Source of the DNA: Sphingopyxis sp. CCNWLW2
GTDB lineage: Bacteria; Pseudomonadota; Alphaproteobacteria; Sphingomonadales; Sphingomonadaceae
Length of the DNA: 64,000 bases
Reading direction: 5' to 3'
Assembly (NCBI RefSeq): GCF_037095755.1
Contig: NZ_JBAWKJ010000001.1
Span: forward strand, 2,173,001 to 2,237,000
A program made the position numbers and the translations under genes. The notes beneath the pieces are model-generated. The model saw only the letters and a program-made list of their open reading frames with translations. It was not told the origin of the DNA and did no database searches. Shown piece by piece: positions 29,444-64,000 of the stretch. The stretch's first letter is position 1; each line of letters begins with the position of its first letter.

Positions 29444-29463
29444 TTACTTAGTTTGCTAAGTAA
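29444..29463. promoter_or_regulatory. Palindromic operator TTACTTAG-N4-CTAAGTAA in a divergent promoter
   Basis: A perfect eight-base inverted repeat with a four-base spacer between the divergent TonB receptor (minus) and MFS carrier (plus). The inner core CTTAG-N4-CTAAG recurs at 32890-32903 in front of the sulfatase gene. A nearby MarR regulator is encoded at 30999, so this is a likely binding site. The site is 64 bases before the MFS start codon and 63 before the receptor start. Confidence 0.7.
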
Positions 29464-38221: not shown

Positions 38222-38842
38222 CTAAGCCGACAACGTCGCGCGATAGTCGTCGACGGCAAGCAATAGCCCTTCGATCTCGGCCGGAACGATCCGGATCCGG
38301 AGGTCGTCTCGGCCATTCGGCCGCCCCTTGAATTTGAGATCCCAGCCTTCCGCGCGGGTCATGGCGGCCCTGAGCTGGGTTTCGTCGACCGAGAAGACCA
38401 GCTTCATCGTCAGCGCGCAATCGCCGTTGAAGTCGCTATTCGGGCACATGGTGTCGTCGCCGCGCCGCGCGTGATCGAGCCGCTGTGCCACGAGGTTGCC
38501 ATCGCGATCCGCGAAGTGGACCGTGTCATAGAGACGCTGCGAGCCCCAATAGCGCAGGGACTGGTGCACCTCGAACCGGGTTTCGCCGGTGCGTTTGTCG
38601 ACATGGGCTTCGACATGGCTGTCGAACGAAGTAGAGCCATTCAGCCGCCGTTTTTTGCGAAAACCGTTGCGGGTCGAGATAATTGTTGCGAACTCCAGAT
38701 CGTCGTCGTCGATCGTGGCTTTGGCGCGGAAGGCTTCCGCATCCATTTTTGCGAGCTGTCTCGGCACCGCGGGAGCGTTCGCCACCGCGGGCGAAGCGAG
38801 GACAACTGCGACCAAGCCAAGGGTCAGGCTGGAAAAACGCAC
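38222..38842 (-). CDS. Secreted protein of unknown function
   Basis: A 206-residue protein whose start is taken at GTG 38842, where AAGGAG lies 8-9 bases upstream. The N-terminus VRFSSLTLGLVAVVLASPAVANA is a clear signal peptide. The mature part is charged, with paired Cys in CPNSDFNGDC that could form a disulfide and the repeated-looking RNGFRKKRRLNG. I do not recognise a family. It is encoded divergently from the two-component system, whose control region includes a weak copy of the presumed regulator box at 38936-38949. A sensing or envelope role in that system is possible but not supported by sequence. Confidence 0.6.
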   Translation of the reverse strand: MRFSSLTLGLVAVVLASPAVANAPAVPRQLAKMDAEAFRAKATIDDDDLEFATIISTRNGFRKKRRLNGSTSFDSHVEAHVDKRTGETRFEVHQSLRYWGSQRLYDTVHFADRDGNLVAQRLDHARRGDDTMCPNSDFNGDCALTMKLVFSVDETQLRAAMTRAEGWDLKFKGRPNGRDDLRIRIVPAEIEGLLLAVDDYRATLSA

Positions 38843-39228
38843 GAGTGAAACTCCTTGAAGACCATGAAACCGGCGGGGGGACGCCGCCATGGCTCGAGCA
38901 AATACCGGGCGAATAATGCACTCAGGTGTCGCCAACGTAAGGAAACATTGCTGAACTGCGCGGGTGGTCTCAGCCATCAAGCAGCTCGATCGGATTGTTC
39001 CGCAGCCTCTGCTCTCCCGCTGCCGACCGTCTGTCTTTCAACAGGCCCAAAGCTCACTGTCGGGAAGCATGCGCGCGCGCCGGGGATGTTGTAAGAAAAT
39101 GTTTCTGCGCCCACGCGCGCACTGGAAGGGCGGCGCGTCGTCCCTATCTGGAGCTGGCGGGTCGCCTGACCATCAGCCCTCCGGGCTTTCATCACCAGAG
39201 ACTACGAACGAACGGCATAGACTTTCCC
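38843..39228. other. Divergent intergenic region upstream of the response regulator
   Basis: A 386-base non-coding stretch. It holds the inverted copy of the box shared with the carbonic anhydrase promoter (39091-39105) and a partial copy around 38936-38949. There is a GC-rich block GCGCGCGCGC near 39071. I saw no open frame with family homology. It probably contains promoters for both flanking genes. Confidence 0.5.
39091..39105 (-). promoter_or_regulatory. Putative response-regulator box GTAAGAAAATGTTTC
   Basis: Read on the minus strand this is GAAACATTTTCTTAC, matching the copy at 41277-41291 (GAAACATTTGCTTAC) in 14 of 15 positions. It lies 124 bases before the response-regulator start, consistent with autoregulation. 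It is in opposite orientation to the two copies downstream of the kinase. Confidence 0.6.
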
Positions 39229-39939
39229 ATGACTGCCTCCACAATTTTGATCGTTGAGGACGATCCCGCCTTGCGCACGCTTACGGCTCGCGCACTTCAG
39301 CAAAATGGCTATCAAGTCCGGCCTGCAGCTTCCGCTCCCGAAATGTGGCTGGCGCTGGATGTCGGGGCCGTCGATCTTGTGCTGCTCGACGTCATGCTGC
39401 CCGGAACCAGCGGCCTCGATCTCTGCCGTCAGCTTCGCCAGCAGAGCGAAGTGCCTATCATCTTCGTGAGCGCCAAGGGCGGCGAGACCGATCGAATCGT
39501 CGGGCTCGAACTGGGTGCCGACGATTATCTCGCCAAGCCATTCAGCACCCGCGAGCTGACCGCTCGCGTGCGTGCCGTGCTTCGCCGCGGGCGTCTGGAT
39601 CGTCAGCATGGCAAAGGGGGACAGCAGGTCGCTGAATTCGCTGGTTGGATAGTCAATTTTTCGAGGCGCGAGCTGCATTCTCCGACGGGCGCGATCGTCG
39701 AGTTGACGGGGGCAGAGTTTGATCTGTTGTCGAGCTTTCTGGAGAATCCTCAACGTGTGATTGCGCGTGAACGGTTGATCGAACTGTCGCGAACGCGGCT
39801 CGGCGATGCTTCGGATCGCAGCGTCGATGTCCTGGTCAGCCGCTTGCGGCGCAAGCTTTCGCACAAGGATGCGAGCGCGCCGATCATCACTGTTCGCGGC
39901 GTCGGCTATATGTTCAACGTCGAAGTGTCGCGTCGGTGA
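39229..39939 (+). CDS. OmpR/PhoB family response regulator
   Basis: A 236-residue regulator with a receiver domain and a C-terminal winged helix. The acidic pocket is VEDD (residues 9-12), the phosphoacceptor is Asp54 in VLLDVMLP, and the conserved Lys103 is in AKPF. The DNA-binding domain includes ELTGAEFDLLSSFLENPQRVI and ends with the wing RGVGYMF. ATG at 39229 is chosen because it precedes the family N-terminus; the open frame upstream lacks homology. Its stop overlaps the kinase start (GTGA). Likely targets are the promoters carrying GAAACATTT-N-CTTAC boxes. Confidence 0.93.
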   Translation: MTASTILIVEDDPALRTLTARALQQNGYQVRPAASAPEMWLALDVGAVDLVLLDVMLPGTSGLDLCRQLRQQSEVPIIFVSAKGGETDRIVGLELGADDYLAKPFSTRELTARVRAVLRRGRLDRQHGKGGQQVAEFAGWIVNFSRRELHSPTGAIVELTGAEFDLLSSFLENPQRVIARERLIELSRTRLGDASDRSVDVLVSRLRRKLSHKDASAPIITVRGVGYMFNVEVSRR

Positions 39940-41249
39940 CCGACGCCATGCGGCCGTCGCTCGGGCTGGTCGGGCGGATCTTTCTGATCCTGCTATTGGC
40001 GATCACGATCGAATTTACCGTCAGCACCTTCCTTCACGAGCGCGCGGGGCAGTTGCGCGTCGAAGAGGATGAGGCGCACCGCGTGGCCGAGCATCTCGCC
40101 GCTGCCAGCCGTTTGCTGAATGCGAGCCCGCGCAGCGAACGCCCGGCCCTCGCGGCCCGTCTGTCGAGCGAAACCTTCATCGTCGAATGGCATCCTACCA
40201 GCCTCCCGCTCATGCCAATGGCGGCGCCGCTGAACGAAATGCGCACGCAGATCATCGGATGGGAGCCAGCTCTGGGGCATGAGAATTTGCGCCTGCATCT
40301 GAAGGAGCCGGGACGTAACGGCAAGGTCACCGGCCAACTGTCGCTTGCCGACGGAAGCTCGCTGGAGTTCAAGGCGACGCAGCTCGTCGATCCCTCGCGG
40401 CTGCGGATCAATCGGTTCCTGTTGGCGCTGGTGCCCGCGATCGCACTGATCCTCATTGGCGGACTGCTCATGCGCCGCGTCCTCTCTCCGATGCGAATGC
40501 TCGCGCGCGCCGCGGTACGGATCGGCGAAGGCGACGCCGTGGTTCTTCCCGAGGTCGGCGTATCGGAAATCCGGCGCGTGATTGCCGCCTTCAACGAAAT
40601 GCAGGCGCGCATCCATCAGCTGATCACCGATCGCACGGAGGCGCTTGCCTCGGTCGGCCACGACTTGCGCACGCCGCTCACAAGGCTGCAGCTTCGCACC
40701 GAGGCAATCGACGATCCGTTTTTGCGCCTTTCGATCGAGAAGGACGTCGGCGAAATGGAAGCGATGGTCGCTTCGCTGCTCGCTTTCTATGGCGGCGACA
40801 GCGATCCTGAAAAGCCCGTACAGACGGACATAGCGGTCTTGGCGGCCACAATCGTCGACGATGCTTCGGACATGGGCGATCTGGCGGCCTATCAAGGGCC
40901 GGACCATCTCGAGATCGTCGTACGTCCGTTGGCGCTCAAGCGCGCTCTGTCGAATCTCGTTGAGAATGCGATCAAATATGCCGGCGGGGCGCAGGTCAGT
41001 ATTCGAATGGAGGATGGCCGGGTCGTCCTCTGCGTCGAGGACGACGGCCCGGGCATTCCCGAAGATGAACTGGAGCATGTGCTCGAGCCCTTCGTCCGGC
41101 TGGACCTTGCGCGGAGCCGCGATACGCTCGGGTTAGGCTTGGGAATCCCGATCGCGCGGCGCGTTGCGCACCGGGAGGGCGGCATGCTGCGTCTGTCGAA
41201 CCGGCCAACAGGCGGGCTGCGCGCCGAGATTGATATTCCGCTAGGCTGA
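39936..41249 (+). CDS. Sensor histidine kinase
   Basis: A 437-residue membrane kinase starting with GTG. One transmembrane helix at about residues 10-31 and another at 160-178 flank a periplasmic domain of about 130 residues that would sense the signal. A HAMP linker follows, then the DHp histidine at His242 in SVGHDLRTPLTRL, and the ATP-binding domain with NLVENAIKYA, EDDGPGIPEDEL and GLGLGIPIARR. It overlaps the response regulator by four bases. The periplasmic domain has no family I recognise, so the stimulus is unknown; the context with carbonic anhydrase and SulP suggests inorganic carbon or pH. Confidence 0.92.
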   Translation: MTDAMRPSLGLVGRIFLILLLAITIEFTVSTFLHERAGQLRVEEDEAHRVAEHLAAASRLLNASPRSERPALAARLSSETFIVEWHPTSLPLMPMAAPLNEMRTQIIGWEPALGHENLRLHLKEPGRNGKVTGQLSLADGSSLEFKATQLVDPSRLRINRFLLALVPAIALILIGGLLMRRVLSPMRMLARAAVRIGEGDAVVLPEVGVSEIRRVIAAFNEMQARIHQLITDRTEALASVGHDLRTPLTRLQLRTEAIDDPFLRLSIEKDVGEMEAMVASLLAFYGGDSDPEKPVQTDIAVLAATIVDDASDMGDLAAYQGPDHLEIVVRPLALKRALSNLVENAIKYAGGAQVSIRMEDGRVVLCVEDDGPGIPEDELEHVLEPFVRLDLARSRDTLGLGLGIPIARRVAHREGGMLRLSNRPTGGLRAEIDIPLG

Positions 41250-41255
41250 GCGGGC

Positions 41256-41291
41256 GGAAACACTTCCTTACAACCGGAAACATTTGCTTAC
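41256..41291 (+). promoter_or_regulatory. Two direct repeats of the presumed response-regulator box
   Basis: GGAAACACTTCCTTAC (41256-41271) and GGAAACATTTGCTTAC (41276-41291) match at 14 of 16 positions with a 20-base period, about two helical turns. They lie between the kinase stop and the carbonic anhydrase start, upstream of the 5' leader. A further inverted repeat CATTTG-N6-CAAATG (41281-41298) overlaps the second copy, and GCTGCG-T-CGCAGC follows at 41298-41310. A direct repeat arrangement is usual for PhoB-type binding sites. Confidence 0.65.
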
Positions 41292-41377
41292 ACAAATGCT
41301 GCGTCGCAGCAAAGTTCGGGGCCTAACTCCGGGTTCGCGCCGCTTCTCCCTTCGGCGCCAATCAAGGAGTCCCCTCG

Positions 41378-42064
41378 GTGAACGAGCTGATCGGCCGTGT
41401 CTTTTCTTTCGAAAAGCAAACATTTCCCAATCAAAGCACACTCTATGGACGCCTCGCCAGCGACGGACAAAGTCCGAAGGCGCTGATGATATCCTGCGCG
41501 GACTCGCGCATCGTCCCGGAACATATCATGCAGGCCGAGCCTGGCGATCTGTTCGTGTGCCGCAACGCGGGCAACATCGTGCCTCCCTTTGCCACGCAAA
41601 ATGGCGGTGTCTCTTCGACCGTCGAATATGCGGTCGCCGCGCTTGGTGTCCGAGACATCATCGTGTGCGGGCACTCGGATTGCGGCGCGATGAAGGCGCT
41701 GGCTGTCAATCAGGACCTGAGTAGCATGCCGAATGTCGCGGCATGGCTGCGTCATTCACACGCCGCGCACAAGGTTGTGACCGATAGTTATCCCGCGATG
41801 GATGACATCCAGCGGATCCGCGCGGTCTCGCTCGAAAATGTGGTCATTCAGCTTGCCCATCTGCGCACGCATCCCGCGGTAGCGGCGGGTCTCGCGCGCG
41901 GGGAAATCGCGCTGCACGGCTGGTTCGTCGATATTCATGCCGGCTGCATACTCGGCCTGGACGGAGCGACCGGCCGCTTCATGCCGCTGCGCGAGGACGC
42001 TCCGCTGCCCGTCGCTCTGCCGCATGCCTCGCGGCGCGCCGCCGATTTCGCGGAAGCGGTGTGA
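41378..42064 (+). CDS. Beta-carbonic anhydrase
   Basis: A 228-residue enzyme catalysing interconversion of CO2 and bicarbonate. The zinc-site residues are visible: Cys40, Asp42 and Arg44 in SCADSR, and His99 and Cys102 in CGHSDCGAM. The start GTG at 41378 is set by AAGGAG eight bases before. The stop overlaps the following SulP gene (GTGATG), so they are translationally linked. It would supply or consume bicarbonate carried by SulP. The repeats upstream imply control by the two-component system. Confidence 0.93.
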   Translation: MNELIGRVFSFEKQTFPNQSTLYGRLASDGQSPKALMISCADSRIVPEHIMQAEPGDLFVCRNAGNIVPPFATQNGGVSSTVEYAVAALGVRDIIVCGHSDCGAMKALAVNQDLSSMPNVAAWLRHSHAAHKVVTDSYPAMDDIQRIRAVSLENVVIQLAHLRTHPAVAAGLARGEIALHGWFVDIHAGCILGLDGATGRFMPLREDAPLPVALPHASRRAADFAEAV

Positions 42065-43575
42065 TGAACGTCGCCCTGCCGACACTCGGCAAAACCTTCT
42101 CGCGCGATTTGACCGCGTCGATCGTCGTCTTTCTCGTTGCGATGCCATTGTGCATGGGGATCGCGATCGCCTCGGGGGTTCCGCCCGAAAAGGGCCTGAT
42201 AACCGGAATTATCGGCGGCATTGTCGTCGGTGCGTTCGCCGGATCGCCGCTTCAGGTGAGCGGGCCGGCGGCCGGACTTGCCGTCATCGTCTTCGAAATC
42301 GTGCGCGACCAGGGGCTTTCGGCCCTCGGCCCGATCCTCGTTCTCGCTGGGCTCATCCAGATTGCGGCCGGCGTTTTCCGGCTCGGCGGCTGGTTTCGCG
42401 CAATCTCGCCCGCCGTCGTTCACGGGATGCTTGCAGGTATCGGCTTGTTGATCGTGCTCGGCCAATTCCATGTGCTATTCGATGCCAAGCCGCTTCCCGG
42501 TGGGATCGACAATCTCGTGGCGATGCCCGGCCGCATCCTTGGGCTCACGCCCGGTGGCGGAGCGCTGGCCGCTTTCGCTGTTGGCGTGCTGACGATAGCG
42601 GCGATGCTGGGGTGGGAACGCGTGCGTCCGCAGAGCCTGCGCCTCGTGCCCGGCGCACTCATTGGTGTGGTGGCTGCCACCTTGGTCGCCTATGGTTTCG
42701 GGCTCGACGTTATTCGCGTCGATGTTCCGCAATCGATCGTCGGCGCGATTGCTCTGCCCGATGCGGGCATGCTGCAGCGTTTTGCCGAGCCCACGCTGAT
42801 CGCCACGGCGGTTGCGATCGCCTTTATCGCAAGCGCCGAGACGTTGCTCTCCGCGGCGGCGGTGGACCGGATGCACGACGGCGTGCGGACAAACTATAAT
42901 AAGGAACTGCGCGCGCAAGGTGTCGGAAATCTGCTCTGCGGCGTCGCTGGCGCGCTTCCGATGACCGGTGTGATCGTACGCAGCTCGGCCAATGTGCAGG
43001 CTGGCGGTGCCACGCGGCTTTCGACGATCCTGCACGGTGTGTGGATCCTCGGGTTCGTCGCGCTGCTGCCCTGGCTTCTGCGCGAAATCCCGATGGCGGC
43101 GCTTGCCGGCGTGCTCGTCGTCACTGGCGTCAAGCTCGTCAGCCTCGATCATGTAAAGCATCTGTTCGACCGCTATGGCCCGCTTCCCGCGCTGATCTGG
43201 GCGGGCACGTTCCTGATGGTCGTCACGACCGATCTGCTGACCGGTGTGCTCGTGGGTCTGGCGCTTTCGACGCTCGAACTCGCGCCGCACGTCCGGAGGC
43301 TGCGGCTGCGCACCGATCAGCGGCAAGAGGGTGAGACGCGGGAGATCGTGCTCGACGGCACAGCGACCTTCGTTGCGCTGCCCAAGCTGACGGCGCTCCT
43401 CGATGACCTCCCGGCGGCGGGACGACTGAAGCTAAATGTCGAACGGCTGAAGCACATCGACCATACCTGCGCCGAAATGCTCGAAGAGTGGATCAAGCGG
43501 CGGCGTAGCTCGGGCCTCATTGTCGAACTCCAGGGCGCAACGGGAAGGCTCGAACGACTGGCGGCCGCGGCATGA
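42064..43575 (+). CDS. SulP/SLC26 family anion transporter with STAS domain
   Basis: A 503-residue permease with about twelve to fourteen membrane helices. N-terminal LGKTFSRDLTASIVVFLVAMPLCMGIAIASG has the SulP signature, and a cytoplasmic STAS domain follows (about residues 420-503) with KLNVERLKHIDHTCAEMLEEW. The ATG at 42064 overlaps the carbonic anhydrase stop; a GTG at 42061 is an alternative start. Next to carbonic anhydrase, bicarbonate (BicA-like) transport is the best inference, but sulfate is equally possible from the family. The downstream protease gene overlaps by four bases. Confidence 0.9.
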   Translation: MNVALPTLGKTFSRDLTASIVVFLVAMPLCMGIAIASGVPPEKGLITGIIGGIVVGAFAGSPLQVSGPAAGLAVIVFEIVRDQGLSALGPILVLAGLIQIAAGVFRLGGWFRAISPAVVHGMLAGIGLLIVLGQFHVLFDAKPLPGGIDNLVAMPGRILGLTPGGGALAAFAVGVLTIAAMLGWERVRPQSLRLVPGALIGVVAATLVAYGFGLDVIRVDVPQSIVGAIALPDAGMLQRFAEPTLIATAVAIAFIASAETLLSAAAVDRMHDGVRTNYNKELRAQGVGNLLCGVAGALPMTGVIVRSSANVQAGGATRLSTILHGVWILGFVALLPWLLREIPMAALAGVLVVTGVKLVSLDHVKHLFDRYGPLPALIWAGTFLMVVTTDLLTGVLVGLALSTLELAPHVRRLRLRTDQRQEGETREIVLDGTATFVALPKLTALLDDLPAAGRLKLNVERLKHIDHTCAEMLEEWIKRRRSSGLIVELQGATGRLERLAAAA

Positions 43576-44690
43576 TCGGTGCCTCGCCAGCGCGTGCCGT
43601 ACCGGAACGAGGAGGCGAGGCACCCACTGGAAACTGGGTCGCCTGCGGGAACGGGGAGGATTCGTTACTGACTCTCCCGGTTAAGATCCGCGGCGTCGAA
43701 ACGAGAGCGGTTCTTGACAGCGGCGCCACCCGCTCCGCGGTGGATGCTGGCTTTGCGGCTCGCCATCGGCTGCATGGCGTGCGCGATCATCGCGTTACGG
43801 CGCTCACACGAGAGACCGTAGCCAGAATGACCGGCCCGTTACACATCGAGGCTGGCGCCGCGCATTTGCTCACGACGTCAGCCTTGATACTCGATCTGGC
43901 ACCGATGGCACGCGCTGCGCGAATGTCGATCGAACTGGTGCTCGGGCGAGAATTCTTTGTACGCAACATGGTCGAGATAGACCCCGATCGGGCCGCGCTC
44001 CGGTTTTGGGCCAATGGCAGCGATAACATAAATCACTGGCTGCCGGTCGTGCAGACGGCCGACGGGCTGTTCTGCACCACCATCTCACCGAAGGAGGGTT
44101 TGGAGGCCGCAGCGATCATCGATCTGGGCTGCTCGACGCCGCTCTACGTCGACCCCGAATATGCCGAGGCAAATAATCTGTTCGGCCGCATGAGGCGAGG
44201 TTCCAGCGCAAGCCTCGGGGTCGAAGGCGTCGCTATCAGCCAGCTCGGCCGTTTGGAAAGCTTGCGTGTGGGTGACGTCATTCTCCGTGACGTGCCCTTC
44301 GCGGTTCCACCCGTCTGGCATTTTGCTGCGCCCATGATAGTGGGCCTTCCGCTTCTCATGCGCTTTCGTTGTTGTCTGGCTTTCGGGCGCGCCCGGATGC
44401 AGCTGGTTCGTGCAAACGGATCGAACAGGCCATTTGTGCGAGACGCGTCCGGGCTCAGCGTGCTTCACGCGGGCGATCACCTGCAAGTCATCCATGTGGC
44501 CAAAGACAGCCCGGCAGCAAAAGCAGGCCTCCATGAAGGAGACAGCATTGTCGCAATCAACGACGAGCAGGTCGGTCCGGCCAGCGTCCAGAACCATCGC
44601 AATCTCGGCAAGCGGCCGCCAGGGACACGCTATGCGCTCTCGATGCTTGCCAAAGACGATGTGGAATTGGTTCTCGAGGATTATTATTGA
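43572..44690 (+). CDS. Retropepsin-like aspartic protease with C-terminal PDZ domain
   Basis: A 372-residue protein with two retropepsin lobes in tandem and a PDZ domain at about residues 285-365 (HVAKDSPAAKAGLHEGDSIV). The first lobe has AVLDSGATRSAV, the aspartate being Asp49; the second lobe has IIDLGCSTPLYV, with Asp184 but Leu where Ser or Thr is normal (D-L-G). No signal peptide or membrane helix is evident. Its start overlaps the SulP stop (ATGA), so it is in the same operon as carbonic anhydrase and SulP. Known relatives such as PerP of Caulobacter cleave specific partners. A role in processing another protein of this module is inference. Confidence 0.78.
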   Translation: MIGASPARAVPERGGEAPTGNWVACGNGEDSLLTLPVKIRGVETRAVLDSGATRSAVDAGFAARHRLHGVRDHRVTALTRETVARMTGPLHIEAGAAHLLTTSALILDLAPMARAARMSIELVLGREFFVRNMVEIDPDRAALRFWANGSDNINHWLPVVQTADGLFCTTISPKEGLEAAAIIDLGCSTPLYVDPEYAEANNLFGRMRRGSSASLGVEGVAISQLGRLESLRVGDVILRDVPFAVPPVWHFAAPMIVGLPLLMRFRCCLAFGRARMQLVRANGSNRPFVRDASGLSVLHAGDHLQVIHVAKDSPAAKAGLHEGDSIVAINDEQVGPASVQNHRNLGKRPPGTRYALSMLAKDDVELVLEDYY

Positions 44691-63849: not shown

Positions 63850-64000
63850 CCCACGCTACGGTCTACCTGGATCCACGGTTGATAGCGGGCTCCGCCAGTA
63901 ATCATTTATTACAAGATTCCGCATTCCAGCTTGCGGCTGGAGGCAATATTATTTCACGAAGTTCCGCAACACCCTGCTGGGATTCGAACTTTTTTCGAAA

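Follow-up and report, generated by a model that had tools for sequence, protein, structure and literature searches.

We analysed a stretch of 64,000 nucleotides (the window; positions 2,173,001 to 2,237,000 of contig NZ_JBAWKJ010000001.1) from Sphingopyxis sp. CCNWLW2, in which the genes of a two-component system (TCS) precede those for a carbonic anhydrase and an anion transporter. Five genes share one direction on the + strand: an OmpR-family response regulator (RR; 39229..39939), an EnvZ-like sensor histidine kinase (HK; 39936..41249), a beta-carbonic anhydrase (CA; 41378..42064), a SulP-family anion transporter with a C-terminal STAS domain (42061..43575), and a single-chain retropepsin-like aspartic protease with a C-terminal PDZ domain (43572..44690). 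Adjacent genes overlap by 4 bases at RR/HK, CA/SulP and SulP/protease. An earlier note on this DNA had named the same five genes, all of which were recovered by domain searches, and had described stop/start overlaps among CA, SulP and protease, which were seen at both junctions. The span that it assigned to the system (38222..44690) indeed includes the five genes, but its first part, 38222-39228, is not regulator sequence; it consists of a gene on the opposite strand (38222..38842, -) and the 386-bp intergenic stretch that separates this gene from RR. The divergent gene encodes an exported protein of 206 aa, judged by inspection from its signal-peptide-like N-terminus, which matched nothing in Pfam at cut-off or in NCBIfam. 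It is a predicted target of the regulator.

RR combines a receiver (Response_reg, 105.7 bits) with a winged-helix domain (Trans_reg_C, 71.4 bits), both above the cut-offs, which places it in the OmpR family. HK contains HAMP, HisKA (slightly under the cut-off) and HATPase domains, together with two transmembrane segments, located by inspection, and a periplasmic domain of ~125 aa. The top NCBIfam models were OmpR for RR (213 bits) and EnvZ for HK (209 bits), neither reaching the equivalog cut-off (331 and 415, respectively). A Foldseek search with the model of the HK sensor domain gave nothing at E<=0.001; its best matches, weak and suggestive, include low-pH and neutral-pH structures of the domain of RisS, from the RisS/RisA TCS, one of the closest known systems. 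CA was assigned to the beta class by Pro_CA (161 bits) and by the zinc-site motifs CxDSR and HxxC, which were read by eye as CADSR and HSDC; its nearest solved relative in the PDB is 5swc (173 bits), which we take to be the cyanobacterial CcaA. The transporter matched Sulfate_transp (212.8 bits) and STAS (29.9 bits) above the cut-offs of 23.2 and 29.2, which places it in the SulP family, and has solved relatives in 5da0 and 6ki1. Since it scored 118 of the 880 bits of the BicA equivalog and also missed the DauA and sulfate-permease cut-offs, bicarbonate is proposed as its substrate on the grounds that it is constantly paired with CA.

A short DNA box recurs between these genes. The exact pattern GAAACAYTTNCTTAC has three sites in the window, and these are all three of the 4.62-Mb genome, with none for the reversed control. 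When up to two mismatches were allowed, the window gave 4 matches against 0.07 expected, the fourth of which, at 29456, is unrelated. A degenerate pattern, GMAAYRNTTNSTNACR, has 4 sites in the genome, all at this locus, and 1 in the reversed control. Two copies stand as a direct repeat before CA, box 3 (GAAACACTTCCTTACA; 41257..41272, +) and, 20 bp after it, box 4 (GAAACATTTGCTTACA; 41277..41292, +), both of which were found with the exact pattern, the degenerate pattern and the position weight matrix (PWM) described below. Box 2 (GAAACATTTTCTTACA; 39090..39105, -; PWM score 31.8) lies inverted before RR. The earlier note had recognized these three copies and missed a degenerate one, box 1 (GCAATGTTTCCTTACG; 38936..38951, -; PWM score 23.5), which is located 93 bp upstream of the GTG of the divergent gene and is followed by a -10-like TA at +47. 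Box 1 is shared with loci L004 and L005, and is present in L006 at a different distance. Box 2 has no TA at +47, and its candidate targets are RR itself or a lost gene. Within each copy before CA, the half-sites GAAACA and CTTACA are spaced 10 bp apart, and tandem half-sites arranged head to tail with a 10-bp phase are the layout of OmpR-family sites. Another 20 bp after box 4, at the place expected for a -35 element, palindrome scans and promoter alignment revealed the palindrome TGCTGCGTCGCAGCA (41297..41311), followed by a predicted -10, CTAACT (41323..41328, +), at +46 from box 4.

The gene order was then compared among relatives. An orthologue of SulP (E<=1e-120) was detected in 59 of 298 genomes of the family, indicating a recurrent but patchy module. 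CA immediately precedes SulP in all 58 other family loci. RR lies within the fetched stretch in 50 of them (hereafter the TCS loci) and HK in 49 of the 58, the stretch of L063 stopping inside RR. Of the 50 TCS loci, 46 keep the strict order RR-HK-CA-SulP; the closest RR is downstream of SulP in L062, L063 and L065, and HK and CA are separated by an insert in L078. The first three, all of genus g76, have a second, diverged RR (51-54% identical) before CA, and the closer RR comes after SulP and a porin. Within Sphingopyxis, 19 of 80 genomes encode this SulP, and the 15 newly fetched loci, which were held out, are all in the order RR-HK-CA-SulP. A class-wide sample of 385 genomes contained SulP at E<=1e-110 in three: this genome, L139 and L140. 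L139, from another alphaproteobacterial family, shows two successive CA-SulP pairs, a convergent HK-RR pair and boxes before both CA genes; the SulP match of L140 has neither TCS nor box in the fetched stretch. The 70 carriers of the module (this genome, the 50 TCS loci, 18 of the genus, and G607) represent 26 genera, one of them outside the family.

The box accompanies the TCS genes. The exact box GAAACANTTNCTTACA was present in 8 of the 298 family genomes (10 sites; reversed control 1), and in 4 of the 7 genomes other than this one the site falls between HK and CA of the orthologous RR-HK-CA-SulP locus. The HK-CA gaps of 48 loci, of which 47 were retained, served to build a 24-bp PWM; 45 of the 48 belong to the TCS loci and the remainder are L004-L006. 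The locus left out, L073, has a box scoring 21.4. Of the 50 TCS loci, 48 have a PWM match above 16 bits that begins 83-121 bp upstream of CA. The CA matches of training loci are circular; those of held-out loci, TCS-less loci and non-CA sites are not. A match above 16 bits was found 86-114 bp before CA in 15 of 15 held-out loci, which do not amount to 15 independent events since they come from one genus and 8 of the 15 have nearly the same box. Conservation of gene order and box in relatives, which had been set as a check beforehand, was thus borne out for RR-HK-CA-SulP. In addition, all 19 SulP-bearing genomes of the genus have a match of the degenerate pattern ahead of CA, ~0.8 kb upstream of SulP. 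The stretches of the 50 TCS loci gave 101 PWM matches in 532 kb, compared with 3 in 2.66 Mb of dinucleotide shuffles. Eight CA-SulP loci of the family without TCS (L109-L116; 85.6 kb) contained no PWM match above 16 bits anywhere; they act as natural controls, which render the claim of regulation strong even ahead of experiment. In these loci a short gene precedes CA, and it was ArsR-type in 3 of 3 scanned, which may be an alternative regulator for the same CA-SulP cassette. An inverted box within 450 bp upstream of RR recurs in 19 of the 50 TCS loci and 7 of the 15 held-out loci. In genome G072, where another HK-RR pair is found upstream of the module, an extra box (L192, 829-852, +) lies past that pair.

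Alignment of 51 CA promoters on the proximal box revealed a second element, which spans +20 to +36, and a TA at +47 in 43 of them, with C at position 46 in 69% and T at position 51 in 80%. A -35-like hexamer is missing from the consensus 17 bp ahead of the -10, as would fit an activator. The 57 other boxes are marked by G21 (84%), A24 (70%) and G32 (70%), and 21 of them have TA at +47. At CA the second element takes the form of a palindrome, TGCTGC-N3-GCAGCA, present with at most two mismatches in 31 of 48 promoters and in 0.7% of shuffles. This genome contains 4 exact copies, one of them at this locus, and 66 places with at most one mismatch against 12 for the reversed palindrome. Of the other three exact copies, the intergenic-looking one (L120; G000:C1:966606-966620) lies after a peptidase-like and before a TonB-receptor-like open reading frame, as judged by eye.

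So frequent a palindrome, rare in shuffles, could be the site of a second regulator, for which PhaR was considered, with CA-SulP integrating two signals. We regard this as rather unlikely. Among the 39 promoters in which the palindrome is recognized at up to three mismatches, 27 have it at a distance of exactly 20 or 40 bp to the box (5 others have it at -12), and this fixed 20-bp phase favours RR over PhaR as its owner. Moreover, the palindrome half GCAGCAA is the same as the left half of the box consensus, and G21, A24 and G32 of the other boxes are held in the same phase. No exact copy is present in this genome at the promoters of phasin and phaR, where palindromes that are related yet different were seen by eye.

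Boxes that do not belong to CA precede genes for small exported proteins (~90 aa), for the exported family of 206-229 aa to which the divergent protein belongs, and for a TorF-family porin. Two of the ~90-aa proteins were scanned and matched no Pfam family at cut-off. In other genomes, genes for relatives of the 206-aa protein adjoin the module, and a box precedes some of them. The porin (TorF family putative porin, Gcw_chp), whose family PF09694 is described as of unknown function, is thus both neighbour and box target in relatives: it is encoded in the fetched stretch of 23 of the 50 TCS loci, and a box above 16 bits precedes it in 14 of the 50. It is absent from this locus, from L004-L006 and from the 15 held-out loci.

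The TCS very probably controls CA and SulP through the box. We consider it fairly probable that the module is a dedicated, local EnvZ/OmpR-like TCS that activates bicarbonate acquisition in heterotrophs. The gene order, the box, its association with the TCS and the fixed promoter spacing are computational findings; binding of the box by this RR, activation, the bicarbonate substrate and the signal are inferred. HK would read a periplasmic signal, and phosphorylated RR would bind the head-to-tail half-sites GMAACA-N4-CTTACA together with the second element 20 bp further on, over the -35 region. From there, with the -10 at a fixed distance, RR would activate the CA-SulP operon and the exported protein on the opposite strand, and in some relatives also the TorF-family porin and the small exported proteins. 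CA and SulP, with the porin where present, may import bicarbonate and balance it with CO2, by which the carboxylases of the heterotroph would stay supplied at low CO2 or in alkaline medium. The simplest role that we infer is the provision of bicarbonate for heterotrophic carboxylases when CO2 is scarce, with this scarcity as the presumed signal; the inorganic-carbon or pH signal proposed in the earlier note is plausible. In a broader form, a TCS of heterotrophs sensing low CO2 or bicarbonate would run CA and SulP acquisition from one recurring promoter architecture, the TorF porin of some relatives completing the route through both membranes, in Sphingomonadaceae and at least one genome of another alphaproteobacterial family. 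This we put forward tentatively, with somewhat more doubt than confidence.

Several results weigh against bicarbonate acquisition under a dedicated TCS. In 3 of the 7 other genomes with an exact box, the site is away from the CA locus (L019, L020 and L022), and these may be further targets or chance matches; the genome of L022 (G110) carries the module too. No CA box scored above 16 bits in L062 or L095. In the 80 Sphingopyxis genomes, the degenerate pattern gave 144 matches against 50 for the reversed control, of which 37 are inside the module; the other 107 are mostly background, with one sequence recurring in many genomes. Finally, the lack of a porin in the held-out loci slightly lowers the odds of the broader form given above.

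The module may alternatively serve pH homeostasis instead of carbon supply, since CA yields protons and bicarbonate and SulP exchanges anions. A CA with an anion transporter would suit pH control, and the sensor model has RisS domains, if only weakly matched, near the top of its list. We give this explanation a minor share of the probability. An envelope or osmotic stress system like the classical EnvZ/OmpR of enterobacteria, in which CA-SulP is one target among several and inorganic carbon is not the signal, appears unlikely. RR and HK resemble OmpR and EnvZ most, their half-sites resemble OmpR sites in tandem order and 10-bp phase, and several non-CA targets are exported proteins or, in some relatives, a porin, as in the enterobacterial system. 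On the other hand, the scores are under the equivalog cut-offs, CA is the constant target in training and held-out loci whereas a porin box is found in a minority, and the degenerate pattern has no site beyond the locus in this genome, so that the regulon here is apparently a single locus.

The earlier note had also proposed a proteolytic step, which the distribution of the protease does not bear out. In retropepsin-like proteases a D-[TS]-G catalytic motif is found in each of two lobes, and the model of this protein (pLDDT 84) shows a two-lobed tethered retropepsin with a PDZ domain, with 9iy9 and tethered HIV-1 protease as the best structural matches. Two Asp_protease_2 stretches were recognized, and D49 and D184 are invariant in 17 sequences (the window protein and 16 of 18 relatives), but the second motif reads DLG instead of D-[TS]-G. 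No signal peptide was seen by eye in the protease of this clade. At least 18 relatives were found at E<=1e-10. However, the gene follows SulP in only 4 of the 19 SulP-bearing Sphingopyxis genomes, and elsewhere in only 2 of the 50 TCS loci (L059 and L060), and weaker relatives (26-30% identity) occur in Sphingopyxis without this SulP (G006, G021, G050 and G078). The retropepsin-PDZ gene is therefore a clade-specific passenger, an accessory, and its distribution rules it out as a core part. Control of a proteolytic step by the TCS, with the protease as effector, is very improbable in spite of the gene overlap with SulP, the tethered dimer and its invariant aspartates. A carbon-concentrating mechanism for autotrophy was rejected, because a RuBisCO match (PF00016) is present in just 4 of the 70 carriers, 66 being without one, and this genome (G000) has none.

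To our knowledge, how heterotrophic bacteria sense a shortage of CO2 is largely an open question. The module supplies a sensor, a regulator, a candidate binding site and a target set for sensing of CO2 scarcity, sampled in ~25 genera, and may explain how such a shortage is perceived by bacteria that do not live on CO2. The TorF porin family gains a candidate substrate, bicarbonate or another small anion. Felce and Saier reportedly described SulP-CA fusions. As in the known partnerships of SulP and CA (BicA/SulP uptake), the two proteins are encoded together here; unlike them, the CA-SulP pair lies beside a dedicated TCS, and most of the genomes concerned have no RuBisCO match. Two papers (PMC10880623, PMC12628692) describe bicarbonate-active SulP transporters from cyanobacteria and autotrophic proteobacteria; the words "two-component" and "porin" do not appear in their main text. 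The kinase of a Burkholderia glumae TCS for ammonia neutralisation has six transmembrane helices (PMC12918730), unlike this HK. Among the matches listed in searches of open-licence literature, no paper dealt with a TCS with CA and SulP in sphingomonads, which is weak evidence of novelty. Apart from this locus, a pair of weak PWM matches spaced 45 bp apart (scores 20.0 and 15.3) was observed near the end of the window (63894-63962).

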